Below, piece after piece: positions 14,281-35,883 of a stretch of DNA of 64,000 bases. The notes beneath the pieces are model-generated. The model did no database searches. It was not told the origin of the DNA and saw nothing but the letters and a program-made list of their open reading frames with translations. Position 1 is the first letter of the stretch; each line of letters begins with the position of its first letter. The DNA is from Sphingomonas melonis (GTDB lineage Bacteria > Pseudomonadota > Alphaproteobacteria > Sphingomonadales > Sphingomonadaceae). The stretch is from positions 496,001 to 560,000 of the forward strand of contig NZ_JACCBY010000002.1 in assembly GCF_013409985.1 (NCBI RefSeq), written 5' to 3'. Made by a program: the position numbers and the translations under genes.

Positions 14281-15150
14281 ATGAGCGACGACGCGACCGC
14301 GAACCAGCCTGCCGGCTATGTCCCCCCCGAGGTGTGGAGCTGGAACCAGAGCAACGGCGGCCAGTTCGCCAGTATCAACCGTCCGGTGTCCGGTGCGACG
14401 CACGACAAGGACCTGCCGGTCGGACCGCATCCGCTGCAACTTTATTCCTTGGGCACGCCGAACGGGCAGAAGGTGACCATCCTGCTCGAGGAATTGCTCG
14501 CGGCGGGACACAAGGGCGCCGAATATGACGCCTGGCTGATCGAGATCGGCAAGGGCGACCAGTTCGGCAGCGGCTTCGTCGCGGTGAACCCCAATTCGAA
14601 GATCCCCGCGCTGGTCGATCGCTCAGTCGACCCCGCCATCCATCTGTTCGAAAGCGGCTCGATCCTCTTCTATCTCGCCGAGAAGTTCGGCGCCTTCCTG
14701 CCGACCGAGCCGCACGCGCGGGCCGAGACGATGAACTGGCTGATGTGGCAGATGGGCTCAGCGCCGTTCGTCGGCGGCGGCTTCGGCCATTTCTATGCCT
14801 ATGCGCCGTTCCGCATCCAATATGCGATCGATCGCTATGCGATGGAGACCAAGCGGCAGCTGCACGTGCTCGACACGCACCTTGCCGAGCGCCGCTACAT
14901 GGTCGGCGACACCTATACGATCGCCGACATGGCGATCTTCCCTTGGTATGGCGGGTTGTTCGACGGCATCTACGATGCGCGCACGTTCCTGGCGCTCGAC
15001 GACTATCCCAATCTGGCCCGTTGGCACGCCGAGATCGGCGCGCGCGATGCGGTGCGGCGGGGCCGCGTCGTCAACAAAGCGACCGGCGAGCCGGGCACCG
15101 TGCTGCGCGAGCGACACTCCGCCAAGGATTTCGAGGCGATCGCCTACTGA
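14281..15150 (+). CDS. yghU: glutathione-dependent disulfide-bond oxidoreductase (YghU-like)
   Basis: A 289-residue cytoplasmic glutathione-transferase-fold enzyme. The thioredoxin-like N-terminal half carries 'LYSLGTPNGQKVTILLEELL' (about residues 56-75) and 'NPNSKIPALVD', followed by the 'ESGSILFYLAEKFG' glutathione-contact region. The all-helical C-terminal half ends with 'YMVGDTYTIADMAIFPW'. E. coli YghU binds two glutathiones and reduces disulfides and organic peroxides; the same role is inferred here. The start at 14281 follows GGGAGATCCAG. The 3' end meets that of the receptor at 15161 with only 10 bp between. Confidence 0.9.
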   Translation: MSDDATANQPAGYVPPEVWSWNQSNGGQFASINRPVSGATHDKDLPVGPHPLQLYSLGTPNGQKVTILLEELLAAGHKGAEYDAWLIEIGKGDQFGSGFVAVNPNSKIPALVDRSVDPAIHLFESGSILFYLAEKFGAFLPTEPHARAETMNWLMWQMGSAPFVGGGFGHFYAYAPFRIQYAIDRYAMETKRQLHVLDTHLAERRYMVGDTYTIADMAIFPWYGGLFDGIYDARTFLALDDYPNLARWHAEIGARDAVRRGRVVNKATGEPGTVLRERHSAKDFEAIAY

Positions 15151-24192: not shown

Positions 24193-24723
24193 ATGACGAC
24201 GGAAACCAATACGGTCGAACTGGCCACCGAGCTGACGATTGCGTGGCTGAGCAATCCCAACACGCGCACCAATGCCGATGACGTGCCGGCCTTCCTGCAG
24301 TCGATGCATGCCGCGGTCGGCCGTCTGGCCAGCCCCGACGCCGCCGAGCCCGAGCAGGCGGCGCAGGAGTTCACGCCTGCCGTCTCGGTGCGCAAGTCGC
24401 TCGCGTCGCGTGACCACATCATCTCGATGATCGACGGCAAGCCGTATCGCACGCTGCGCCGCCACCTGACGACGCACGGCCTGACCCCCGACGAATATCG
24501 TCAGCGCTATGGCCTGAAGCCCGATTATCCGATGGTCGCGCCGTCCTACAGCGAGAGCCGCAGCGCGATGGCCAAGACGATCGGCCTCGGTCGCAAGGCC
24601 GGCCAGAAGGTCGATCAGGGTGCCGGCAACGGCAATGGCAACGGTGGCGCCGCCAAGGCACCGCGCAAGGGCGGCAAGGCCGCGCTGCAGGCGGCCAAGG
24701 ATACGCTCGGCACCGAGGAATAA
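24193..24723 (+). CDS. mucR: MucR/Ros-family transcriptional regulator lacking the zinc cysteine
   Basis: A 176-residue DNA-binding regulator. In other alphaproteobacteria MucR/Ros proteins control exopolysaccharide, motility and cell-cycle genes. The DNA-binding core is 'SLASRDHIISMIDGKPYRTL' followed by 'RRHLTTHGLTPDEYRQRYGL' (about residues 74-112). In classical Ros/MucR the equivalent of 'IISMIDGK' reads 'IxCLEDGK', with cysteine as a zinc ligand. Here that cysteine is serine, while the two histidines (RRHLTTHG) remain. Zinc-free MucR homologues are known in Mesorhizobium. The tail is Gly/Asn/Lys-rich (GNGNGNGG). It lies beside the polysaccharide-type genes at 25-30 kb. Confidence 0.9.
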   Translation: MTTETNTVELATELTIAWLSNPNTRTNADDVPAFLQSMHAAVGRLASPDAAEPEQAAQEFTPAVSVRKSLASRDHIISMIDGKPYRTLRRHLTTHGLTPDEYRQRYGLKPDYPMVAPSYSESRSAMAKTIGLGRKAGQKVDQGAGNGNGNGGAAKAPRKGGKAALQAAKDTLGTEE

Positions 24724-25182: not shown

Positions 25183-27549
25183 TCAGGCGGCGGTCGTCCC
25201 GGTCATCGCGGTACGCAGCACCGGCCGCGGCGCTGCCAGCAGCGGCGCGAGTCGGCGATAGGTCGCCAGCGCCTGTCCGACCACCTGGTCCATATTATAG
25301 TAGCGGTAGGTCGCCAGACGCCCGACGAAGCTGACGTTGGGCTCCGCCACCGCAAGCGCCTCATAGCGCTTGTAGAGCGCCTGATTCTCGTCGCGCGGGA
25401 TCGGATAATAAGGATCGCCCGTCTCGCTCGGGAATTCGTAGGTCAGGCTGGTCCGCTCGGCGCTCTGGCCGGTGAGATGCTTGTATTCGGTGATGCGGGT
25501 GTGAGGCACGGACTCATTGGGATAGTTCACGACGGCGACCGGCTGGTGCCATTGCGTGTCCATCGTGCGATGTTCGAAGCGGAGCGAGCGATATGGGAGC
25601 TTCCCGTATCGGTGGTCGAAATATTCGTCGACCGGCCCGGTGAAGACGAGATGGTCGTGCGGATAGGCGTCGCGCACATCCTTATAGTCGACGCCGAGCA
25701 GCAGATCGATGTTGGGATGATCGAGCATCGCCGCGAACATCTTGGTATAGCCGTCGCGCGGCATCGCCTGGAACTTGTCGGTGAAATAGCGGTCGTCGGT
25801 GTCGCTGCGCGTCGGCACGCGCGCCGTCACCGACTTGTCGAGCTCCGAGGGGTCCATGCCCCATTGCTTGCGGGTATAGCCCTGGAAGAAGGTCTCGTAG
25901 AGTTCGCGGCCGACCTTCGACACCACGACATCGGCGGACGTGCGGATCGGATCGACCGGCTCGGCGCGGCTGGCGAGGAAGGCGTCGACCTCCGCCTCGG
26001 TCGACAGGTCGAGGCCATAGAGCATGTTGAGCGTCGTGCGGTTGATCGGCATCGGCAGCAACTGTCCCTCGACGTCGGCGAGCACGCGATGCTCGTACGG
26101 CCGCCAGGCGGTGAAGCGCGAGAGATAGTCGACGATCTCGGATGAGTTGGTGTGGAAGATGTGTGGGCCATATTGATGGATCAGGATCCCCGCCGCATCG
26201 AGATGGTCGAAGGCGTTGCCGGCGATATGCGGGCGACGATCGACGACCAGCACGCGCTTGTTGCCGTCCGCGGCCAGCCGCTCGGCCATCACCGCGCCGG
26301 CAAAGCCGGCACCGACGACCATCACGTCATAGCGTTCGCGCGCCGCCGGCCAGGCGATCGGCGACACCACCGGCTCATGCCGGTTGCGGCCGGCGATCTC
26401 GGCCTCGATCAGCGCCGCCATGTCGCTGGCGGTGCGGGTCCACGAACCACGCGCGATCTGCGCGTCGGCCGCGTCGCGCCAGCCGGAGCCGGCGCCGCGC
26501 ATCGCCAGCGCGGCGTCGCATGCGGCGACGAAGGCGGCGGGCGTGTCGGCGATCGCCACCGCCTCCAGCTCGCCATAATGGCGCACGACGTCGACGATCG
26601 GCGTCGACACCACCGGACAGCCGGCGGCAAGATATTCGGGCGTCTTCGTCGGGCTGATGAAGCGCGTCGCCTCGTTGATCGCGAACGGCATCAGCGCGAC
26701 ATCCCAGCCGGCCATATAATCCGGCAACTCGGCATAGGATTTGCCGCCGAGATAATGGATGTTGGCGCGGCGCGGCAGATCGTTCGCATCGATCTTGACC
26801 ACCGGACCGACGACGACCAGCGACCATTCGGGGCGAGCATCCGCCACTGCGGCGAGCAGGTCGAGGTCCATCCGCTCGTCCACCACCCCGGAGAAGCCGA
26901 GCCGCGGCGTGGCGATGCCGGCCTGATCGGCGGGCGCGGCGACCGGGCCGCGCGCGCGGGAGAAATGCGCCGCGTCGATGCTCGACGGAAAGGCATGGAC
27001 GTTGGAATGGCGGCCGCGCTTCGCCTCGTACAGGCTGGTGCCGCCAGTAAAGACGATGTCGGCGCGCTCGATCAGCCGCTGTTCGCGCTCGAGCAGTTCC
27101 GGCGGTGCGCCCTTGAAGGCCGACAATTCGTCCATGCAATCGTAGACGATGCAATCCGCCGCGACATGGTCGGAGAAGGGCAGCATCATCGGCGTATAAT
27201 ACCAGCGCAGGACGCGGCCGGTGGTGCCGGCAAGCGCCGCGTCGAGCAGACGGGCAAGCTCCGGCTCGTCGCGGCCGCGCAGCGTCTCGTCGAGCAGCGG
27301 CGTCAGCACGGTGACGCCACTGTCGGGGCAGACATGGTCACGGACCTGCGAGGCACCGAGCCCCGCCGCATATTCCGGCTCTTCCCAGAACAGGACGCGG
27401 TGCGTCTGCGCGAAGCGCGTCATGAGATGCTGGGGACGCTGGAAGACAAAGGCCCAGCGCAAATGACTAAAACAGATCAGCGTCGGTCGCTCGCCCGCCC
27501 GTGCATTTATAGTGGAAACGATGTCGGCGGACGAAACCAATACGGCCAC
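25183..27549 (-). CDS. fusion: GT4-like glycosyltransferase + UDP-galactopyranose mutase
   Basis: A 788-residue two-domain protein. Residues 1-395 are a GT-B glycosyltransferase ('FSHLRWAFVFQRPQHLMTRFA' at the start; donor-site region 'ISPTKTPEYLAAGCPVVSTP'). Residues 407-770 are a complete UDP-galactopyranose mutase: FAD site 'VVGAGFAGAVMAERLA' (glycines 413/415/418), 'GPHIFHTNS', 'YTRKQWGMDP', 'RVPTRSDTDDRYFTDKFQ' and 'YPIPRDENQALYKRYEAL'. The mutase interconverts UDP-Galp and UDP-Galf; the transferase may use the product directly. The GTG start at 27549 follows AAGGGG. It is divergent from the GH1-RmlD fusion. The domains are clear; the acceptor and glycan are unknown. Confidence 0.9.
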   Translation of the reverse strand: MAVLVSSADIVSTINARAGERPTLICFSHLRWAFVFQRPQHLMTRFAQTHRVLFWEEPEYAAGLGASQVRDHVCPDSGVTVLTPLLDETLRGRDEPELARLLDAALAGTTGRVLRWYYTPMMLPFSDHVAADCIVYDCMDELSAFKGAPPELLEREQRLIERADIVFTGGTSLYEAKRGRHSNVHAFPSSIDAAHFSRARGPVAAPADQAGIATPRLGFSGVVDERMDLDLLAAVADARPEWSLVVVGPVVKIDANDLPRRANIHYLGGKSYAELPDYMAGWDVALMPFAINEATRFISPTKTPEYLAAGCPVVSTPIVDVVRHYGELEAVAIADTPAAFVAACDAALAMRGAGSGWRDAADAQIARGSWTRTASDMAALIEAEIAGRNRHEPVVSPIAWPAARERYDVMVVGAGFAGAVMAERLAADGNKRVLVVDRRPHIAGNAFDHLDAAGILIHQYGPHIFHTNSSEIVDYLSRFTAWRPYEHRVLADVEGQLLPMPINRTTLNMLYGLDLSTEAEVDAFLASRAEPVDPIRTSADVVVSKVGRELYETFFQGYTRKQWGMDPSELDKSVTARVPTRSDTDDRYFTDKFQAMPRDGYTKMFAAMLDHPNIDLLLGVDYKDVRDAYPHDHLVFTGPVDEYFDHRYGKLPYRSLRFEHRTMDTQWHQPVAVVNYPNESVPHTRITEYKHLTGQSAERTSLTYEFPSETGDPYYPIPRDENQALYKRYEALAVAEPNVSFVGRLATYRYYNMDQVVGQALATYRRLAPLLAAPRPVLRTAMTGTTAA

Positions 27550-27611
27550 GTTGATCCCCTTAACTGTGGTTATTCACCATCGGGAAACATGACGCGGGAC
27601 TTGAAGGTTCC

Positions 27612-27639: not shown

Positions 27640-27696
27640 AACACGATTTTAGGAACGTTGTCCGGGCGCAGCCGTTGGGCGCGACGGGAGACGCAC

Positions 27697-29883
27697 ATGC
27701 ATGATCTGGAGCTTTGGGGCGGTGTCGAGTGCACCGTCAACCGAACCGATGCGGGCTATCTCGACCAGCTGCGGCTGAGCGGCCATCATGTCCGTGACGG
27801 CGATCTCGACCTGTTTGCCGGCCTCGGCCTCGCGGCGATCCGATATCCCGTGCTGTGGGAACGGGTGTCGCCCGATCCGGCGGCGGCGCCGGACTGGCGC
27901 TGGTCCGACGCACGGCTGGGGCGCCTGCGCGAGCTCGGCATGCGACCGATCGTCGGGCTGGTCCATCACGGCAGCGGGCCGCGTCATACCCATCTGCTCG
28001 ACGACGGCTTTGCGCCGGGCCTCGGCGAACACGCGCGGCAGGTCGCCGAACGCTATCCCTGGGTCGAGGCGTGGACGCCGGTCAACGAACCGCTGACCAC
28101 CGCGCGCTTCGCCGCGCTCTACGGCCATTGGTATCCCCATGCCGCCGACGAAGGTTCGTTCTGGCGGGCGCTGCTCAATCAGGTGGACGGCACGCGGGCG
28201 GCGATGCGCGCGATCCGCCGGGTCAATCCCGCGGCACAGCTGATCCAGACCGACGATCTCGGCCGCACCTATGCGACGACGCGGCTCGGCGAGCAGGCGG
28301 CGTTCGACAATTTGCGCCGCTGGGCCGGGTGGGACCTGCTGTTCGGCCGGATCGTGCCGCATCACCCGCTCTGGGCACGGATCGCGCGCTACGGTCTGGG
28401 CGACCGGTTGCGTGCGATCGCCGACGATCCCTGCCCGCCCGACGTGATCGGGGTGAACCATTATCTGACCAGCGACCGCTTCCTCGACCACCGGCTGCAA
28501 CGCTATGCCGTCGAGACGCATGGCGGCAACGACCGGCTCGCTTATGCCGATACCGAGTCGGTACGGGTGCTCGATCCGGCGCCGGCGGGGCTCGCCGGTG
28601 TGATGCGCGAGGCGTGGCAGCGGTACGGCGTGCCACTGGCGATGACCGAGATCCACAATGGCTGCACCCGCGAGGAACAGCTGCGCTGGGCGGCGGAGGC
28701 GTGGGATACCGCGGTGACGCTGCGCGGCGAGGGCGTGGCGGTGCAGGCGGTCACCGCCTGGTCGCTGCTCGGCAGCCATGGCTGGAACAGCCTGTTGACC
28801 CGCCCGCCGACCGGCCCCGATGCCTATGAACCCGGCGTGTTCGACGTCGCGACCGGTACGCCGCGGCCGACGGCGCTGGCGGCGCTGTGGCGCGGGCTGC
28901 CGCGGGGCGACGCCCGTCATCCGGTGACCGCGGACGAGGGCTGGTGGCGGCGGCCCGAACGGCTGATCTATCCGCCCCTGCCCCGCCCGGCCGGACCGCG
29001 CGCTGCCGCCGATGCCGACCCGGCGCCGATGCTGCTGATATGCGGCGCGACCGGGACGCTCGGCCAAGCCTTTGCCCGCGCCTGTACCCAGCGCGGCATC
29101 CGCCACCAGCTCATCGGGCGCGCGACACTCGATCTGCTCGACACCGGCCGGATCGGTGCGGCGCTCGACCGACTCCGGCCCTGGGCGGTGGTGAATGCCA
29201 CCGGCTGGGTGCGGGTCGACGACGCCGAGGGTGAGGAAGCGACCTGCCACGCGATCAACGCCACCGCGGCGATCGCTCTGGCCGAGGCATGTGCCGCGCG
29301 CGGCATCGGCTGCCTCAGCGTGTCGAGCGACCTCGTCTTCGACGGCGACGCGGGGCGGTCCTATGTCGAGTCCGACCCGCCGCGGCCGCTCGGCGCCTAC
29401 GGGCGCAGCAAGGCGGCGATGGAGGCGGGCTGCGCCGCCTTGCCGGGCTCGCTGGTGATCCGCACCGCGGCCTTCTTCTCCGCGCTGGACGATCACAATT
29501 TCGCAATTGCCGCCGCCGATACGCTGGCGCGCGGCCAGACCTTTCCGGCAGCGGACGACCAGATCGTCACGCCCAGCTTCGTGCCCGCGCTGGTCGACAC
29601 CGCACTCGACCTGTTGATCGACGGCATGGACGGCATCTGCCACGTGTCGGGCGGCGAGGCGTTGAGCTGGGCCGCCTTTGCCGAGCGGGTGGCTGTGGCC
29701 TGTGGCCTCGACCCGCGGCTGGTGCGTCCGGTGGCGGGGGCAACGCTGGGCTGGCGCGCGCCGCGGCCGGCCGCGGCGGGGCTGGCGAGCACGCGGATCG
29801 CGCTGCCCCAGTCGCTCGACGCCGCGCTTGCCCGCTTCGCCGGCGATCGGCGCCAGCGCTGCGCGGGGTCGCGCGCCGCCTGA
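27697..29883 (+). CDS. fusion: GH1-like glycosidase + RmlD-like dTDP-4-dehydrorhamnose reductase
   Basis: A 728-residue two-domain protein without signal peptide. Residues 1-410 resemble a family-1 glycoside hydrolase; both catalytic acids are present, the acid/base in 'TPVNEPL' (Glu131) and the nucleophile in 'AMTEIHNG' (Glu318). Residues 445-715 are an extended short-chain reductase of RmlD type: 'GATGTLGQ' (Gly450/453/456), 'VNATGWVRVDDAE', 'SSDLVFDG' and the catalytic pair in 'YGRSK' (Tyr568/Lys572). The start at 27697 follows GGGAG. RmlD makes dTDP-rhamnose in the cytosol, an odd partner for a glycosidase, so the GH1 half may act on an intracellular sugar conjugate. The function of the whole protein is unknown. 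Confidence 0.85.
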   Translation: MHDLELWGGVECTVNRTDAGYLDQLRLSGHHVRDGDLDLFAGLGLAAIRYPVLWERVSPDPAAAPDWRWSDARLGRLRELGMRPIVGLVHHGSGPRHTHLLDDGFAPGLGEHARQVAERYPWVEAWTPVNEPLTTARFAALYGHWYPHAADEGSFWRALLNQVDGTRAAMRAIRRVNPAAQLIQTDDLGRTYATTRLGEQAAFDNLRRWAGWDLLFGRIVPHHPLWARIARYGLGDRLRAIADDPCPPDVIGVNHYLTSDRFLDHRLQRYAVETHGGNDRLAYADTESVRVLDPAPAGLAGVMREAWQRYGVPLAMTEIHNGCTREEQLRWAAEAWDTAVTLRGEGVAVQAVTAWSLLGSHGWNSLLTRPPTGPDAYEPGVFDVATGTPRPTALAALWRGLPRGDARHPVTADEGWWRRPERLIYPPLPRPAGPRAAADADPAPMLLICGATGTLGQAFARACTQRGIRHQLIGRATLDLLDTGRIGAALDRLRPWAVVNATGWVRVDDAEGEEATCHAINATAAIALAEACAARGIGCLSVSSDLVFDGDAGRSYVESDPPRPLGAYGRSKAAMEAGCAALPGSLVIRTAAFFSALDDHNFAIAAADTLARGQTFPAADDQIVTPSFVPALVDTALDLLIDGMDGICHVSGGEALSWAAFAERVAVACGLDPRLVRPVAGATLGWRAPRPAAAGLASTRIALPQSLDAALARFAGDRRQRCAGSRAA

Positions 29884-29925
29884 GGGGCCTTGTCAGCGCG
29901 GCGGCGAATGCGCAGATGCTGGGCG

Positions 29926-31740
29926 ATGAGCTCTCCTTCCCGCCGCGGCTTCCTGCGCGACGCCGGTTTGGGTCTCGGCGCGCTGACCGTGCCGTGGCTG
30001 CCGGCCTGGGCGCAGCCGGTGTCCGCCGGCCTCGCGCCGGCGCTGCCGACGCTGACCGGCCCCGATATCGCGCTGACCGTCGATCACCTGATGGCGACGA
30101 TCGATGGCAGGCGCACGCATGCGATCGGCGTCAACGGCACGCTGCCCGCCCCGCTGCTGCGGCTGCGCGAGGGGCAGACGGTGCGGCTGTCGGTCACCAA
30201 CCGGCTTGCCGAGGAGACCTCGATCCACTGGCACGGGCTGCTCGTCCCGTTCCAGATGGACGGGGTGCCGGGGATCAGCTTTCCCGGCATCACGCCGGGC
30301 ACCACCTTCACCTACGAATTTCCGGTCGTGCAGGCGGGGACCTACTGGTACCACAGCCATTCCGGGTTGCAGGAGCAGATGGGGCATTACGGCCCGATCG
30401 TCATCGATCCCGCCGGTCCCGATCCGGTCGCGGCGGATCGCGAGCATGTCATCGTCCTGTCCGACCACAGCCCGCTCCACCCGCATGCGATCTTCACCAA
30501 GCTGAAGCAGCAGGGCGGCTATTTCAATTATCAGAAGCAGACCCTTGCCGGGCTGCTCGCCGGGCGCGACCAGGCGGCGAAGGATCGGCTCGCCTGGGGC
30601 GGGATGCGGATGGACCCGACCGACGTCTCCGACGTGACCGGCGCCACCTATACCTATCTGGTCAACGGCCATGGCCCGGCGGACGATTGGACCGCGCTGT
30701 TCGCGCCGTGCGAGCGGGTGCGGCTGCGCGTCGTCAACGCCTCCGCCATGACCAATTTCAATTTGCGCATCCCCGGCCTCGCGCTGACCGTGGTGCAGGC
30801 GGACGGACAGAATGTGCGGCCGGTGACGGTCGATGAGCTTCAGGTCGCGGTGGCCGAGACCTATGACCTGATCGTCGCGCCGGCGGATCGCGCCTATAGC
30901 CTGGTCGCCGAGGCGTGGGACCGGTCGGGCATGGCGCGGGCGACGCTGACGCCGCGGGTCGGGCTGACCGCGCCGGTGCCGCCGCTGCGCAAGCGGCCGC
31001 TCGCGACGATGCGCGACATGGGCATGGGCGCGATGGGCGCGATGGGCGAGGACAAGATGGCTCCTGCCCCCTGCCCGCCCGAACATGCCGCGATGGGCCA
31101 TTGCCAGCCGGGCGGCGAGATGGCGGGCATGCAGCACGCGATGCCGCACACGATGCCGGGCGAGATGCAGCACCGGATGCGCGACTTCGCCGCCGCGCCC
31201 GAACTGCCGAAGACCCCGGTGGTGCAGACGATCGCGCCGATGCCGACGGACCGCACCGGCGAGCCGCCGCAGGGCCTTGCCGATGCCGGCCATCGCGTGC
31301 TGGTCTATCGCGATCTGGTCGCGCTCGCCGCCAATCCGGATACCCGTGCGCCATCACGGCAGCTGCGCATCCATCTGACCGGCAATATGGAACGCTATAT
31401 GTGGGCGTTCGACGGGGTGAAGCTCAACGCGGTCACCGCGCCGATCCCGTTCCGCGAGGGCGAGCGCGTCCGCGTCACTTTGGTCAACGACACGATGATG
31501 GCGCATCCCATCCATCTGCACGGCCATTTCTTCGAACTGGTCACCGGCCACGGCGACCATGCGCCGCGCAAGCATACGATCAACGTCGCGCCGGGCGGCA
31601 CCGCGACGTTCGACCTTACCGCCGACGCGCCGGGCGACTGGGCGTTCCACTGCCACATGCTCTACCATATGCACGCCGGGATGATGCAGGTGGTCAGCGT
31701 CCGTCCCGACACCGGGACCGGCAGCGGAGCGGGGGCATGA
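29926..31740 (+). CDS. copA: copper-resistance multicopper oxidase CopA
   Basis: A 604-residue periplasmic oxidase that oxidises cuprous ions and binds copper. A Tat signal, 'SRRGFLRDAGLGLGALTVP', starts at residue 5; the ATG at 29926 was chosen to open this signal. Copper ligands are visible: 'HWHG' (His101/103), 'HSHSG' (His143), 'HPIHLHGHFFE', and 'HCHMLYHMHAGM' (His575-Cys576-His577). Between cupredoxin domains lies a Met/His-rich region (about residues 365-420) with MGMGAMGAMG- and MQHAMPHTMPGEM-type runs, the usual CopA copper sponge. copB overlaps its stop as ATGA. No CueR/CopRS regulator lies nearby. Confidence 0.95.
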   Translation: MSSPSRRGFLRDAGLGLGALTVPWLPAWAQPVSAGLAPALPTLTGPDIALTVDHLMATIDGRRTHAIGVNGTLPAPLLRLREGQTVRLSVTNRLAEETSIHWHGLLVPFQMDGVPGISFPGITPGTTFTYEFPVVQAGTYWYHSHSGLQEQMGHYGPIVIDPAGPDPVAADREHVIVLSDHSPLHPHAIFTKLKQQGGYFNYQKQTLAGLLAGRDQAAKDRLAWGGMRMDPTDVSDVTGATYTYLVNGHGPADDWTALFAPCERVRLRVVNASAMTNFNLRIPGLALTVVQADGQNVRPVTVDELQVAVAETYDLIVAPADRAYSLVAEAWDRSGMARATLTPRVGLTAPVPPLRKRPLATMRDMGMGAMGAMGEDKMAPAPCPPEHAAMGHCQPGGEMAGMQHAMPHTMPGEMQHRMRDFAAAPELPKTPVVQTIAPMPTDRTGEPPQGLADAGHRVLVYRDLVALAANPDTRAPSRQLRIHLTGNMERYMWAFDGVKLNAVTAPIPFREGERVRVTLVNDTMMAHPIHLHGHFFELVTGHGDHAPRKHTINVAPGGTATFDLTADAPGDWAFHCHMLYHMHAGMMQVVSVRPDTGTGSGAGA

Positions 31741-32871: not shown

Positions 32872-35800
32872 ATGCGGTGGCGGTGGTGCTCCTTTGCTGT
32901 GGTTCTGGCGGGTGCGGCGTGCGGGTTGACGGGCTCGGCAGCGCGGCCCTCGTCTGCGCCTGCCGTCGCCGCACCGACGCGCGCTGCCGATGATCCGTGG
33001 GCAGCGGCCGCGGACCTGTTCTTCAAGGTCGCCGCGCGCGACGACGGCATCCCCGATGCCGGCCTGCCGCGTGCGGTGGCGCAGGACCGCGACGGCTTCA
33101 TCTGGCTCGGCACCGACGGCGGCCTGGCGCGCTGGGACGGCACCGGCTTCAAGACCTATTCGACCGAGCCGAGCGACGGTGCCGGCGCGCTGCCCGAACT
33201 GATGGTCAACACGCTGTTCACGGATCGCGCCGGCCGGCTGTGGCTGGGGATGAGCGCCGAGGGGCTGCTGTGGCGCGATCCGCTCACCGACACCTTCCAT
33301 CGCCCGCCCAACCGCACCCCGCTCGATCGCGCCCATGTCACCGCGATCACCGACGACGGCGGCGGCGGCCTGTGGGTCGGCAGCGAGGCCGGGCTGAGCC
33401 ATGTCCGCGGATCGGATCATCGTGCGACGCTGATCACCGGCCTGCCACCGGGGCGGGTCGGCGCGGTCCACCGCGATGCCGCCGGCCGGCTGTGGATCGC
33501 CGATGAAGGGCAGCTGTTCCGCCGCGACGCCGCCGGCCGCCTCACCGCGGTGCCGGTGCCGGGCGTGGTCGGGACGATCACCGCGCTCATCACCGACGGC
33601 TATGGCCGGCTGTGGATCACCACCAGCGGATCGGGCTTCCATGTCATCGCACCCGACGGCAGCATCCGCCACCTGCCGATCATCGTCGACGGCCATGCGC
33701 CGCCGATCAGCACGATCATCGATGCGGGGCACGGCATGCTGTGGGCCGCATCGCGCGCCGGCATCCTGATCATCGATCCGGCGACGCTGCGCATCCGCCG
33801 CCTGGCCCATGACCCGCAGCTGCCCGCCAGCCCGGCGGAGAACGGCCTCAACCACCTGATGCGCGACCGCTCCGGGCTGGTGTGGATCGTCGGCGATGCG
33901 ACGCTGAGCTATGTCGATCCGGCGCCGCGCCGCGTGCTCGGCCTCGTCAGCGCGTTGCGCCCCAGCCCGCGCCAGCAGCCCGACGTGGTCTGGTCGCTCG
34001 GCATCGCGCCCGACGGTGCGCTCTGGTACGGCTCGCCCGATATCCCCGCCTCGCGCATCGCCCCTGCCGGGGCGACCGGGCTGACACCGCCGCAGCGGCT
34101 GCCGGGCGCGCTTCGCAACGTCCAGTCCTTCACCTTCGCCGCCGATGCCGCCTATACCGCGGGCGAAAGCGGGCTGTTCCGCCTGTCGCTCGATGGCCGA
34201 CGCGCGCAGCGGCTGTCGGCGGAGTCCTGGTCGCGGGTGCTGATGCACGGGCCGCAGCTTTATGCCGGGAACGGCCTCGGCGTCGCATTGCTCGACACGC
34301 GCCGTCCGGGCGTGCCGCAGCGCCTGCCCTGGTCGAAATCGCTCACTGATTTGCGCGTCCGCTCGCTCGCCTTCACCCCCGACGGGCTGCTGTGGGTCGG
34401 CACGGCGCGCGGGCTCAACCGCGTCGACCTGGCCAGCGGCCGCGTCGTCGGCATCCGCCCGGGCGACGGCGGCGAGGCCGGGCTGAAGGCGAATTTCGTC
34501 GGCACCCTGCTCGCCGATCGCGAAGGCCGGCTGTGGGCGGGAACGATCGGCGGCGGCATCACCATCTTCGCGCGCCGCAACGGCGGCTGGCACGCCATCG
34601 CGCATCTCGGCCGGCGCGAGGGATTGCCGCACGACACCGTGGACAAGCTGCTGCTCGGCAGCGACGGCGCGATCTGGGCGAGCACCGATAGCGGCATCGC
34701 GCGGATCGATGCCGCCAGCCTGGCCGTCGCGCCGCTGCATGCCGCCGACGGCGTCCCCTTCACTGCCTATTGGACCGGCGCGGGCGGCACGCTCCCCGAC
34801 GGACGGCTGGTGTTCGCGGGCTTCGGCGGGTTGACGATGGTCGATCCGGCGGCGCCGTCGCGCGCGGCGGCGGACGTGCCGCTGCGCTTCACGTCGGTGC
34901 GCGGCAACGGCAAGGCGTTCATCCCGGTGCCCGGCCGGATGCTGACCATCGGATCGGGCGAGCGCAGCCTGACCGCCGAGTTCGCGCGGCTCGACTTCGC
35001 CGCGGCGCGTGACCAGGTCTATGTCTACCGGCTGTTCCCGCGCGAGACGAACTGGACGCGGGTCGACGCGCTGCACCGGATCGCGCGCTACACCAACCTG
35101 CCGCCGGGCCGGTCGACGCTGGTGGTCCGCGCGCTCGGCCCGGTCGATCGCGGCGGCACGCGCCTTCTCGGCACTCCGCTGACGCTGGATATCGACGTGC
35201 AGACGCGGTGGTTCGAAACCACCGTGTTCCGCATCGTCGGCGCCGCGACGATCGTCGCGATCCTGCTCGCGCTGCTCAACCTGCGGCTGCGCGCGGCGCG
35301 CCAGCGCGAGAAGCAGCTCGAACGGCTCGTCGAGCGGCGCACCGCCGAACTGCTCGTCAGCCAGTCCGAGCTGGAGAAGCTCGCCTATACCGACACGCTG
35401 ACCGGGCTCGGCAACCGGCGGCTGTATGGCGAGATGCTGAGCCGCCACCTGGGCGAGGCGCGGCATGCGCCGTTCGGGCTGCTGCTGATCGATCTCGACC
35501 GGTTCAAGCAGGTCAACGATGCGCTCGGCCACGATGTCGGCGACGCGCTGCTGGTCGAGGTCGCCGACCGGCTGAGCGCGACGATCCGCCAGCACGACAG
35601 CATCTTCCGCCTCGGCGGCGACGAGTTCGCGGTGATCATCGCCGGGCTCGACGGCAGGGGCGCGATCGACGAGACCTGCCGCCGGCTCTACGCCGCCTTT
35701 GCGACGCCGGTGACCGTCGGCCTCCACCGCCTGCATGTCGAACTCAGCATCGGCGCGGTCGTCGCGCGCGCGGAGGGGCTGTCGACCGAAGCGGTGTACA

Positions 35801-35883
35801 AGCTGGCCGACCTCGCGCTCTACGACGCCAAGCGCGCCGGCCGCGGCACCTGGCGCCTGTCGCCGAGCGACCCCGAGGCGTAG
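32872..35883 (+). CDS. membrane diguanylate cyclase with periplasmic beta-propeller sensor
   Basis: A 1003-residue c-di-GMP synthase. After a signal or anchor segment comes a long periplasmic two-propeller region built of repeated 'DRxGxLWxGT'-type blades (Reg_prop, about residues 60-670), then a Y_Y_Y-type beta domain (about 685-770), one membrane helix near 785-806, a short coiled coil, and a GGDEF domain. The active motif GGDEF is intact at 915-919. An RxxD inhibitory site (Arg906-Asp909) lies five residues upstream, so product inhibition is expected. This layout is well known in carbohydrate-sensing hybrid regulators of Bacteroidetes; here the output is c-di-GMP. The signal sensed is unknown. 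Confidence 0.92.
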   Translation: MRWRWCSFAVVLAGAACGLTGSAARPSSAPAVAAPTRAADDPWAAAADLFFKVAARDDGIPDAGLPRAVAQDRDGFIWLGTDGGLARWDGTGFKTYSTEPSDGAGALPELMVNTLFTDRAGRLWLGMSAEGLLWRDPLTDTFHRPPNRTPLDRAHVTAITDDGGGGLWVGSEAGLSHVRGSDHRATLITGLPPGRVGAVHRDAAGRLWIADEGQLFRRDAAGRLTAVPVPGVVGTITALITDGYGRLWITTSGSGFHVIAPDGSIRHLPIIVDGHAPPISTIIDAGHGMLWAASRAGILIIDPATLRIRRLAHDPQLPASPAENGLNHLMRDRSGLVWIVGDATLSYVDPAPRRVLGLVSALRPSPRQQPDVVWSLGIAPDGALWYGSPDIPASRIAPAGATGLTPPQRLPGALRNVQSFTFAADAAYTAGESGLFRLSLDGRRAQRLSAESWSRVLMHGPQLYAGNGLGVALLDTRRPGVPQRLPWSKSLTDLRVRSLAFTPDGLLWVGTARGLNRVDLASGRVVGIRPGDGGEAGLKANFVGTLLADREGRLWAGTIGGGITIFARRNGGWHAIAHLGRREGLPHDTVDKLLLGSDGAIWASTDSGIARIDAASLAVAPLHAADGVPFTAYWTGAGGTLPDGRLVFAGFGGLTMVDPAAPSRAAADVPLRFTSVRGNGKAFIPVPGRMLTIGSGERSLTAEFARLDFAAARDQVYVYRLFPRETNWTRVDALHRIARYTNLPPGRSTLVVRALGPVDRGGTRLLGTPLTLDIDVQTRWFETTVFRIVGAATIVAILLALLNLRLRAARQREKQLERLVERRTAELLVSQSELEKLAYTDTLTGLGNRRLYGEMLSRHLGEARHAPFGLLLIDLDRFKQVNDALGHDVGDALLVEVADRLSATIRQHDSIFRLGGDEFAVIIAGLDGRGAIDETCRRLYAAFATPVTVGLHRLHVELSIGAVVARAEGLSTEAVYKLADLALYDAKRAGRGTWRLSPSDPEA

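Follow-up and report, generated by a model that had tools for sequence, protein, structure and literature searches.

A glycosidase-reductase fusion gene of Sphingomonas melonis and its glycosyltransferase-mutase partner: a possible galactofuranose module

Two divergent fusion genes

The window, a stretch of 64,000 nucleotides from the genome of Sphingomonas melonis, holds two divergent fusion genes. One encodes a glycoside hydrolase family 1 (GH1)-like domain joined to an RmlD-like reductase domain (GH1-RmlD), and the other a glycosyltransferase (GT) joined to a UDP-galactopyranose mutase (UGM). The features of the locus are as follows.

27697-29883, + strand: GH1-RmlD fusion gene, 728 aa, assigned by open frame, domain matches and AlphaFold2 model
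27697-28986, + strand: GH1-fold half, about residues 1-430, with a weak PF00232 match and a structural match to 2j78
28087-28089, + strand: codon of Glu131, acid/base position, in NEP (130-132); Glu in 79/79 alignment rows
28648-28650, + strand: codon of Glu318, nucleophile position, in the TE of TEIHNG (at 317); Glu in 77/77 rows with a residue there (79 rows in all)
29023-29880, + strand: RmlD-fold half, about residues 443-728, with a PF04321 match of 178 bits and a match to 1vl0
29398-29412, + strand: Tyr568-x3-Lys572 of the reductase-like half (YGRSK at 568), present in the window copy; YxxxK (one YxxxR) in 55/84 scorable copies
27652-27676, + strand: EcfG-type motif GGAAC-N17-GTT (equal to GGAAC-N16-CGTT) ahead of GH1-RmlD, found by scan and conserved in relatives
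27586-27611, - strand: EcfG-type motif GGAAC-N18-GTT (equal to GGAAC-N17-TGTT) ahead of GT-UGM, found by scan and conserved in relatives
25183-27549, - strand: GT-UGM fusion gene, 788 aa, divergent from GH1-RmlD, with matches to PF03275 (269 bits), TIGR00031 and glycosyltransferase group 1
26356-27549, - strand: glycosyltransferase half of GT-UGM, about residues 1-398, with PF13692 at 39.7 bits and a TuaH-like match below cut-off
25246-26337, - strand: UDP-galactopyranose mutase half of GT-UGM, residues 405-768, with 536 bits to the solved UGM 3hdq

The GH1-RmlD gene and its divergent orientation to a mutase fusion had been described in an earlier note made from the sequence alone. Its frame and coordinates check out, and the four residues named there as catalytic, Glu131 and Glu318 in the first half and Tyr568 and Lys572 in the second, are in place. 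The N-terminus, MHDLELWGGVECT, which was read directly and not through a signal-peptide program, shows no export signal, in agreement with the same note. In Pfam, the C-terminal half matches RmlD_sub_bind (PF04321), whereas Glyco_hydro_1 (PF00232) is passed only marginally, at 22.7 bits versus a cut-off of 22.6, so that the GH1 half must be regarded as very divergent. Both halves score below the curated equivalog models: 33.7 versus 478.5 bits for the beta-glucosidase model TIGR03356, and 173.6 versus 224.05 bits for the RmlD model TIGR01214. An AlphaFold2 model, computed from an alignment of 65 window and locus proteins, has a mean pLDDT of 94.7 and a pTM of 0.93, which suggests that the two domains are firmly placed against each other. 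The best structural match of the GH1 half is the Thermotoga maritima enzyme 2j78 (Z 35.3, rmsd 3.0, 377 residues), and that of the RmlD half is 1vl0 (Z 36.4, rmsd 1.8, 275 residues, 24% identity). Relatives of GH1-RmlD were found at 77 loci in a scan of GTDB species genomes, and given this number the fusion is not a product of chance. In plasmid records these relatives are named 'family 1 glycosylhydrolase', 'sugar nucleotide-binding protein', 'SDR family oxidoreductase' or hypothetical, and the literature matches listed (open-licence PubMed Central papers, supplements excluded) contain no description of the GH1-RmlD/GT-UGM module.

The partner protein is more readily classified at its mutase end. 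GT-UGM reaches 384.7 bits in the UGM equivalog TIGR00031, above the cut-off of 303.75, and its C-terminal half resembles solved UDP-galactopyranose mutases (3hdq, 3hdy and 3he3), with the match of 536 bits extending over 364 residues. Unlike these enzymes, the partner mutase is fused to the glycosyltransferase at 32 of the 62 loci that have both; at 27 it is an adjacent separate gene. The glycosyltransferase half scores 77.5 bits against the 550 bits of the TuaH equivalog NF047676, a likeness only.

The two genes form a widespread module

The divergent pair is duplicated on another contig of the window's genome, where the two proteins are 70% and 79% identical to those of the window. Together with this second copy and nine plasmid loci, the 77 loci from GTDB genomes make 87, which span 12 phyla by record title, one probably mislabelled record being left out. 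That record (L009) bears the title Arthrobacter sp. TPD3018, but its cassette is of the Sphingomonas type and has EcfG motifs; its label is probably wrong, since it falls inside Sphingomonas in the tree, and it was counted as alphaproteobacterial. The module occurs in Alphaproteobacteria, cyanobacteria, Deinococcus, Acidobacteria, Bacteroidota and others, and relatives of the GH1 gene were found in 25 plasmid records.

At 69 of the 87 loci a GT and/or UGM gene lies in the same stretch as the GH1 gene (within 500 bases at 53 and within 3 kb at 67), counts that, like those of the promoter motifs below, were taken over related genomes and are thus not independent. For the 18 loci with no such gene nearby, a genome-wide search that left out L080, L086, L087 and L095 covered 14 genomes, 13 of which have GT/UGM elsewhere; the only searched genome with none anywhere is 1.6 Mb in size. 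Sampling 199 genomes evenly across the window's family gave a similar picture. The GH1 gene is present in 23 of them and a partner match in 43, with the 23 lying entirely within the 43, and both GT and UGM occur in 23/23 genomes with the GH1 gene versus 39/199 overall (hypergeometric 5e-20, relatedness ignored). Within these 23 genomes the pair is separated by no more than about 1.1 kb in 14 and by ~7 kb in one, and lies on other contigs or far apart in eight. The dependence is one-sided, as 16/199 family genomes have GT and UGM but no GH1 gene. In a class-wide sample the GH1 gene is rare, occurring in three of 385 genomes including the window's own, and the other two have GT/UGM as well.

The earlier note had proposed that both fusions serve one pathway, and had taken separate, unlinked occurrence in most genomes as the pattern that would speak against it. 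That pattern was not seen. Instead, the two genes co-occur, mostly co-localise across phyla, were duplicated together and have promoter motifs that match, and we hold with high confidence that GH1-RmlD and GT-UGM constitute one module.

EcfG-type promoter motifs

The two genes had also been suggested to share a promoter. What they share is the intergenic region, but this region contains two back-to-back EcfG-type motifs, one facing each gene, and the second copy of the pair in the same genome likewise has such a motif facing each gene. Elsewhere in the 64-kb window, GGAAC-N16..18-GTT is matched only at 14342 (+) and 8650 (-). The motifs are like the EcfG promoters of Sphingopyxis granuli and Sphingomonas melonis as given in the accessible portions of PMC7083833 and PMC6599016, where the consensus is GGAAC-N16-CGTT and a TGTT variant of the -10 element is also used (PMC7083833).

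Among alphaproteobacterial loci, the motif is found on the GT side in 26/41 and is absent from 15; dinucleotide shuffles gave a mean of 0.41 and a maximum of 2, and the reversed pattern gave 0. On the GH1 side it is found in 9/50 (shuffle mean 0.5, maximum 4) and is absent from 41, and all nine loci with a GH1-side motif have one on the GT side too. None of the five Methylobacterium loci has the motif. In non-alphaproteobacterial loci it occurs in 0/24 on the GT side and 1/35 on the GH1 side, the division into the two groups, here and in the identity comparison below, having been made by hand on the basis of record titles. The abstract of PMC3892343 describes EcfG as confined to Alphaproteobacteria. 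The genome encodes a PhyR sigma-like domain (95.2 bits, cut-off 27, at C3:296309) and, beside it, a NepR-like match (29.2 bits, cut-off 25.7, at C3:295851) in which one stop is read through. Judged by the motifs, the cassette is apparently stress-controlled through EcfG in Alphaproteobacteria.

The GH1-RmlD/GT-UGM pair was not recognised in the available text of the two EcfG studies (PMC7083833, PMC6599016). For S. melonis this text does list two neighbouring genes with EcfG motifs, 'Glycosyltransferase' and 'Glycosidases' (#1750/#1751); a search of 397 genomes of the family for the exact motif gave 0 matches that would equate this pair with our cassette.

Galactose genes beside the cassette

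The genes that recur near the cassette belong largely to galactose and glycoside metabolism. Among 89 loci, a galE-type gene was counted at 13, galK at 10, galT at 8, GH2 at 18, GH5 at 9 and GH43 at 5, the GH2 count including two perhaps unrelated Sphingomonas proteins (L007 and L008; 31-32% identity, hydrophobic N-terminus), so that 16 is the safer figure. Genes were called with a conservation-weighted ORF picker and not with a trained gene finder, and the neighbour lists may therefore omit or misplace genes. All tested galE (2/2), galK (2/2) and galT (2/2) neighbours pass their curated cut-offs. The single GH2 neighbour tested passes none, and its designation as a galactofuranosidase is thus a guess; GH2 includes beta-galactofuranosidases, in subfamilies GH2_18/19, according to the accessible part of PMC12243196. 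On a Gloeothece plasmid, GT-UGM, GH1-RmlD, galK, galT and GH2 lie within about 13 kb, and a caulobacteral locus (L064) has the order galE-GH1-GT-mutase. A dTDP-rhamnose pathway was also considered and set aside, the named neighbour clusters (~30 representative proteins scanned, under half of the 45 clusters) containing no rmlABC-type gene.

The earlier note had viewed the fusion as the pairing of a glycosidase with a dTDP-sugar reductase. From the UGM match and the gal neighbours, galactofuranose (Galf) and the Leloir pathway are indicated instead; the predicted chemistry points to these rather than to dTDP-sugars. That the chemistry of the module concerns Galf is likely, on the strength of the mutase. 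Our leading interpretation, still a tentative one, is that GH1-RmlD provides the glycosidase of a compact and widespread Galf module, in which the GH1 half turns over the product and the RmlD half is not the catalytic point.

It is also conceivable, if rather unlikely, that the module makes a surface Galf-glycolipid or a polysaccharide side chain, with the GH1 enzyme trimming or editing lipid-linked intermediates at the inner membrane face. It is mainly from surface glycans that UGM products are known, according to both the accessible part of PMC7278926 and general knowledge of the family. Moreover, at six loci (L060, L061, L062, L063, L083 and L090, in Methylobacterium and Azospirillum) the cassette is accompanied by an MsbA-like ABC half-transporter that follows a second, shorter GH1-like protein, itself without a Pfam match in the two cases tested. 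Such an exporter would suit an exported product and speaks against turnover in the cytosol. No polymerase or glycosyltransferase array, however, was found among the named recurring neighbour clusters, many clusters being unnamed.

The GH1 half has a conserved catalytic pair and an altered pocket

The two catalytic glutamates are invariant in the alignment of relatives (see the feature list). In common with established GH1 enzymes (BglA, 2j78/1od0; ancestral enzyme, 6z1h), the GH1 half has the barrel fold, the NEP and TE glutamates, the Asn and Tyr of the G-N-x-Y motif and the Trp of the WSLL motif. It differs from them in being only 13-23% identical (structural list) and in the motifs HWD and NFEW, which in GH1 enzymes belong to the sugar pocket. 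The HWD of solved enzymes is HHG in this family, and the position of the NFEW Glu is occupied by Asp in 48/77 relatives, by Gly in 25/77 and by Glu in 2/77, substitutions that make binding of ordinary glucosides or galactosides doubtful. The family also has conserved blocks of its own, around HHGSGP and TTARFxxLYGHWYPH.

This unusual pocket, unlike that of ordinary beta-glucosidases, together with the tie between the GH1 gene and the synthesising enzymes GT and UGM, would also suit a transglycosylase that builds the product by moving Galf or galactose between acceptors. A precedent for such logic is SFR2, a plant GH1 enzyme that acts as a transglycosylase. By analogy the GH1 half might do the same, which we consider unlikely: the recurrent galK, galT and GH2 neighbours suit turnover, while fold and sequence do not distinguish hydrolysis from transfer.

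The RmlD-like half retains its catalytic residues in some lineages and loses them in others

The RmlD half was scored in 87 copies (the window, the second copy, 77 genome loci and eight plasmid loci), three of which are truncated (L065, L077 and L080) and were left unscored. Among the 84 scorable copies, 55 have YxxxK (YxxxR in L041 only), four have FxxxK, 20 have lost the motif and five lack the domain altogether. Domains with YxxxK, that of the window included, also have the glycine-rich loop, and this combination, present in most copies, speaks for possible reductase activity in those lineages. The window's own copy may thus be an active reductase. Like RmlD proteins (1vl0, 3sc6, 1kbz), it has the fold, the glycine-rich loop and YxxxK; unlike them, it is fused and scores below the equivalog cut-off, and many of its relatives have lost the catalytic residues. 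A separate RmlD-like gene, 34% identical, is found elsewhere in the window's genome.

On a tree of the GH1 halves, the distribution of YxxxK versus the rest requires 17 changes when the four FxxxK rows are taken as losses (14 when they are taken as kept), as compared with 24.5 on average (range 19-28) for shuffled labels; the tree is a quick one, with 35/82 inner branches weakly supported and L077 and L080 left out. The losses therefore cluster partly by kinship, and yet are many. In 67 of the 68 loci with matches to both halves, identity to the window is lower for the RmlD half than for the GH1 half, a comparison that took only loci with an RmlD match and so passed over eroded copies. The eroded copies retain an LDLLIDG-type segment, and in a model of one of them (L030) a trimmed core of strands and helices remains, most of it at pLDDT 70-95; the loops are of low confidence and the tail is disordered. 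They fit a domain that is retained for structure or binding and not for reduction, at least in those lineages. MAT2B (2ydx, 4ktt), the beta subunit of methionine adenosyltransferase 2, is an RmlD-fold protein that matches GH1-RmlD by sequence and fold and is a non-catalytic regulatory subunit; in contrast to GH1-RmlD it is a separate subunit with no glycosidase fusion. GH1-RmlD may be a case of a fused reductase-like domain that outlives its own chemistry. Eroded domains occur in Sphingomonas copies L030, L032, L043, L055 and L081, beside species with intact ones, and these copies make a good set for the study of fused-domain loss.

A truly bifunctional enzyme, close to the idea of the earlier note, would free or transfer a sugar with its GH1 half and, with its RmlD half, reduce a keto sugar, 4-keto or other, from the same pathway. 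The YxxxK and loop of the 55 copies, the match to the RmlD family and to 1vl0, and the predicted firm packing of the domains would all agree with this. We nevertheless regard it as quite improbable, given that 25/84 copies have lost the catalytic motif or the domain and retain the GH1 residues, that the RmlD half is almost always the less identical one and falls below the NCBI equivalog cut-off, and that no dehydratase above cut-off appears among the named neighbour clusters (many being unnamed). Catalysis by both halves, as the note had it, does not hold as a general feature, the reductase residues being repeatedly lost and the GH1 residues invariant, and the supposed pairing of two activities weakens.

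A model for the module

A scavenging enzyme of the ordinary kind, a cytosolic beta-glucosidase or beta-galactosidase that came to lie beside GT-UGM by accident, would account for the GH1 fold and the catalytic pair, but it is hardly credible in view of the linkage across phyla, the near-obligate co-occurrence with GT-UGM, the changed pocket, the Pfam score barely above cut-off and the score far under the beta-glucosidase equivalog.

According to the interpretation that we favour, of a glycosidase arm in a Galf module, the mutase half of GT-UGM would convert UDP-Galp into UDP-Galf, as its family strongly suggests. The glycosyltransferase half would then transfer Galf, in the cytosol or at the inner membrane face, to an acceptor, and the GH1 half, presumably a retaining-type enzyme with an altered sugar pocket, would hydrolyse or remodel the GT-UGM product inside the cell. 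Galactose freed in this way could re-enter metabolism through GalK, GalT and GalE, whose genes neighbour the cassette in several lineages. For the RmlD-like domain the main role would be that of a rigid scaffold or an NAD(P)-binding regulator, and some lineages at least could do without its reductase chemistry. The motifs suggest that the general stress sigma factor EcfG switches the cassette on in Sphingomonadaceae and other Alphaproteobacteria. Counting against this reading are the unlinked copies (18/87 loci; 8/23 family genomes) and the 16 genomes with GT and UGM that have no GH1 gene.

With this in mind, one may speculate on a pan-bacterial cytosolic cycle of a Galf-glycoside, stress-induced in Alphaproteobacteria, hitherto undescribed, in which GT-UGM makes the compound. 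Its turnover would fall to a new subfamily of GH1 whose pocket has been reshaped, gated by the fused domain, an NAD(P)-binding pseudo-reductase now in decay in several lineages. In this full form the proposal is doubtful. Most work on Galf concerns its presence on pathogen surfaces; if environmental bacteria do have a Galf compound that is cytosolic or linked to stress, this would be a new role for the sugar. A Galf-making gene pair with what would be a dedicated intracellular glycosidase recurs across phyla, sometimes on plasmids.

Other features of the window

Directly after the stop of GH1-RmlD lies a gene for a CopA-type copper oxidase (29890-31740, +; TIGR01480, 813.6 bits). An operon with CopA was considered and rejected: tblastn (E <= 1e-10) gave no CopA match in 89 related loci, so that CopA appears unrelated and this neighbourhood of the window is not conserved. 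Further downstream, 32872-35883 (+) encodes a large protein with Reg_prop propeller repeats, a Y_Y_Y domain and a C-terminal GGDEF domain. A ROS/MucR-family regulator (24193-24723, +) lies near the cassette, and the same holds for the second copy in this genome and for the cassette at two other loci (labels L084, L018 and L031).
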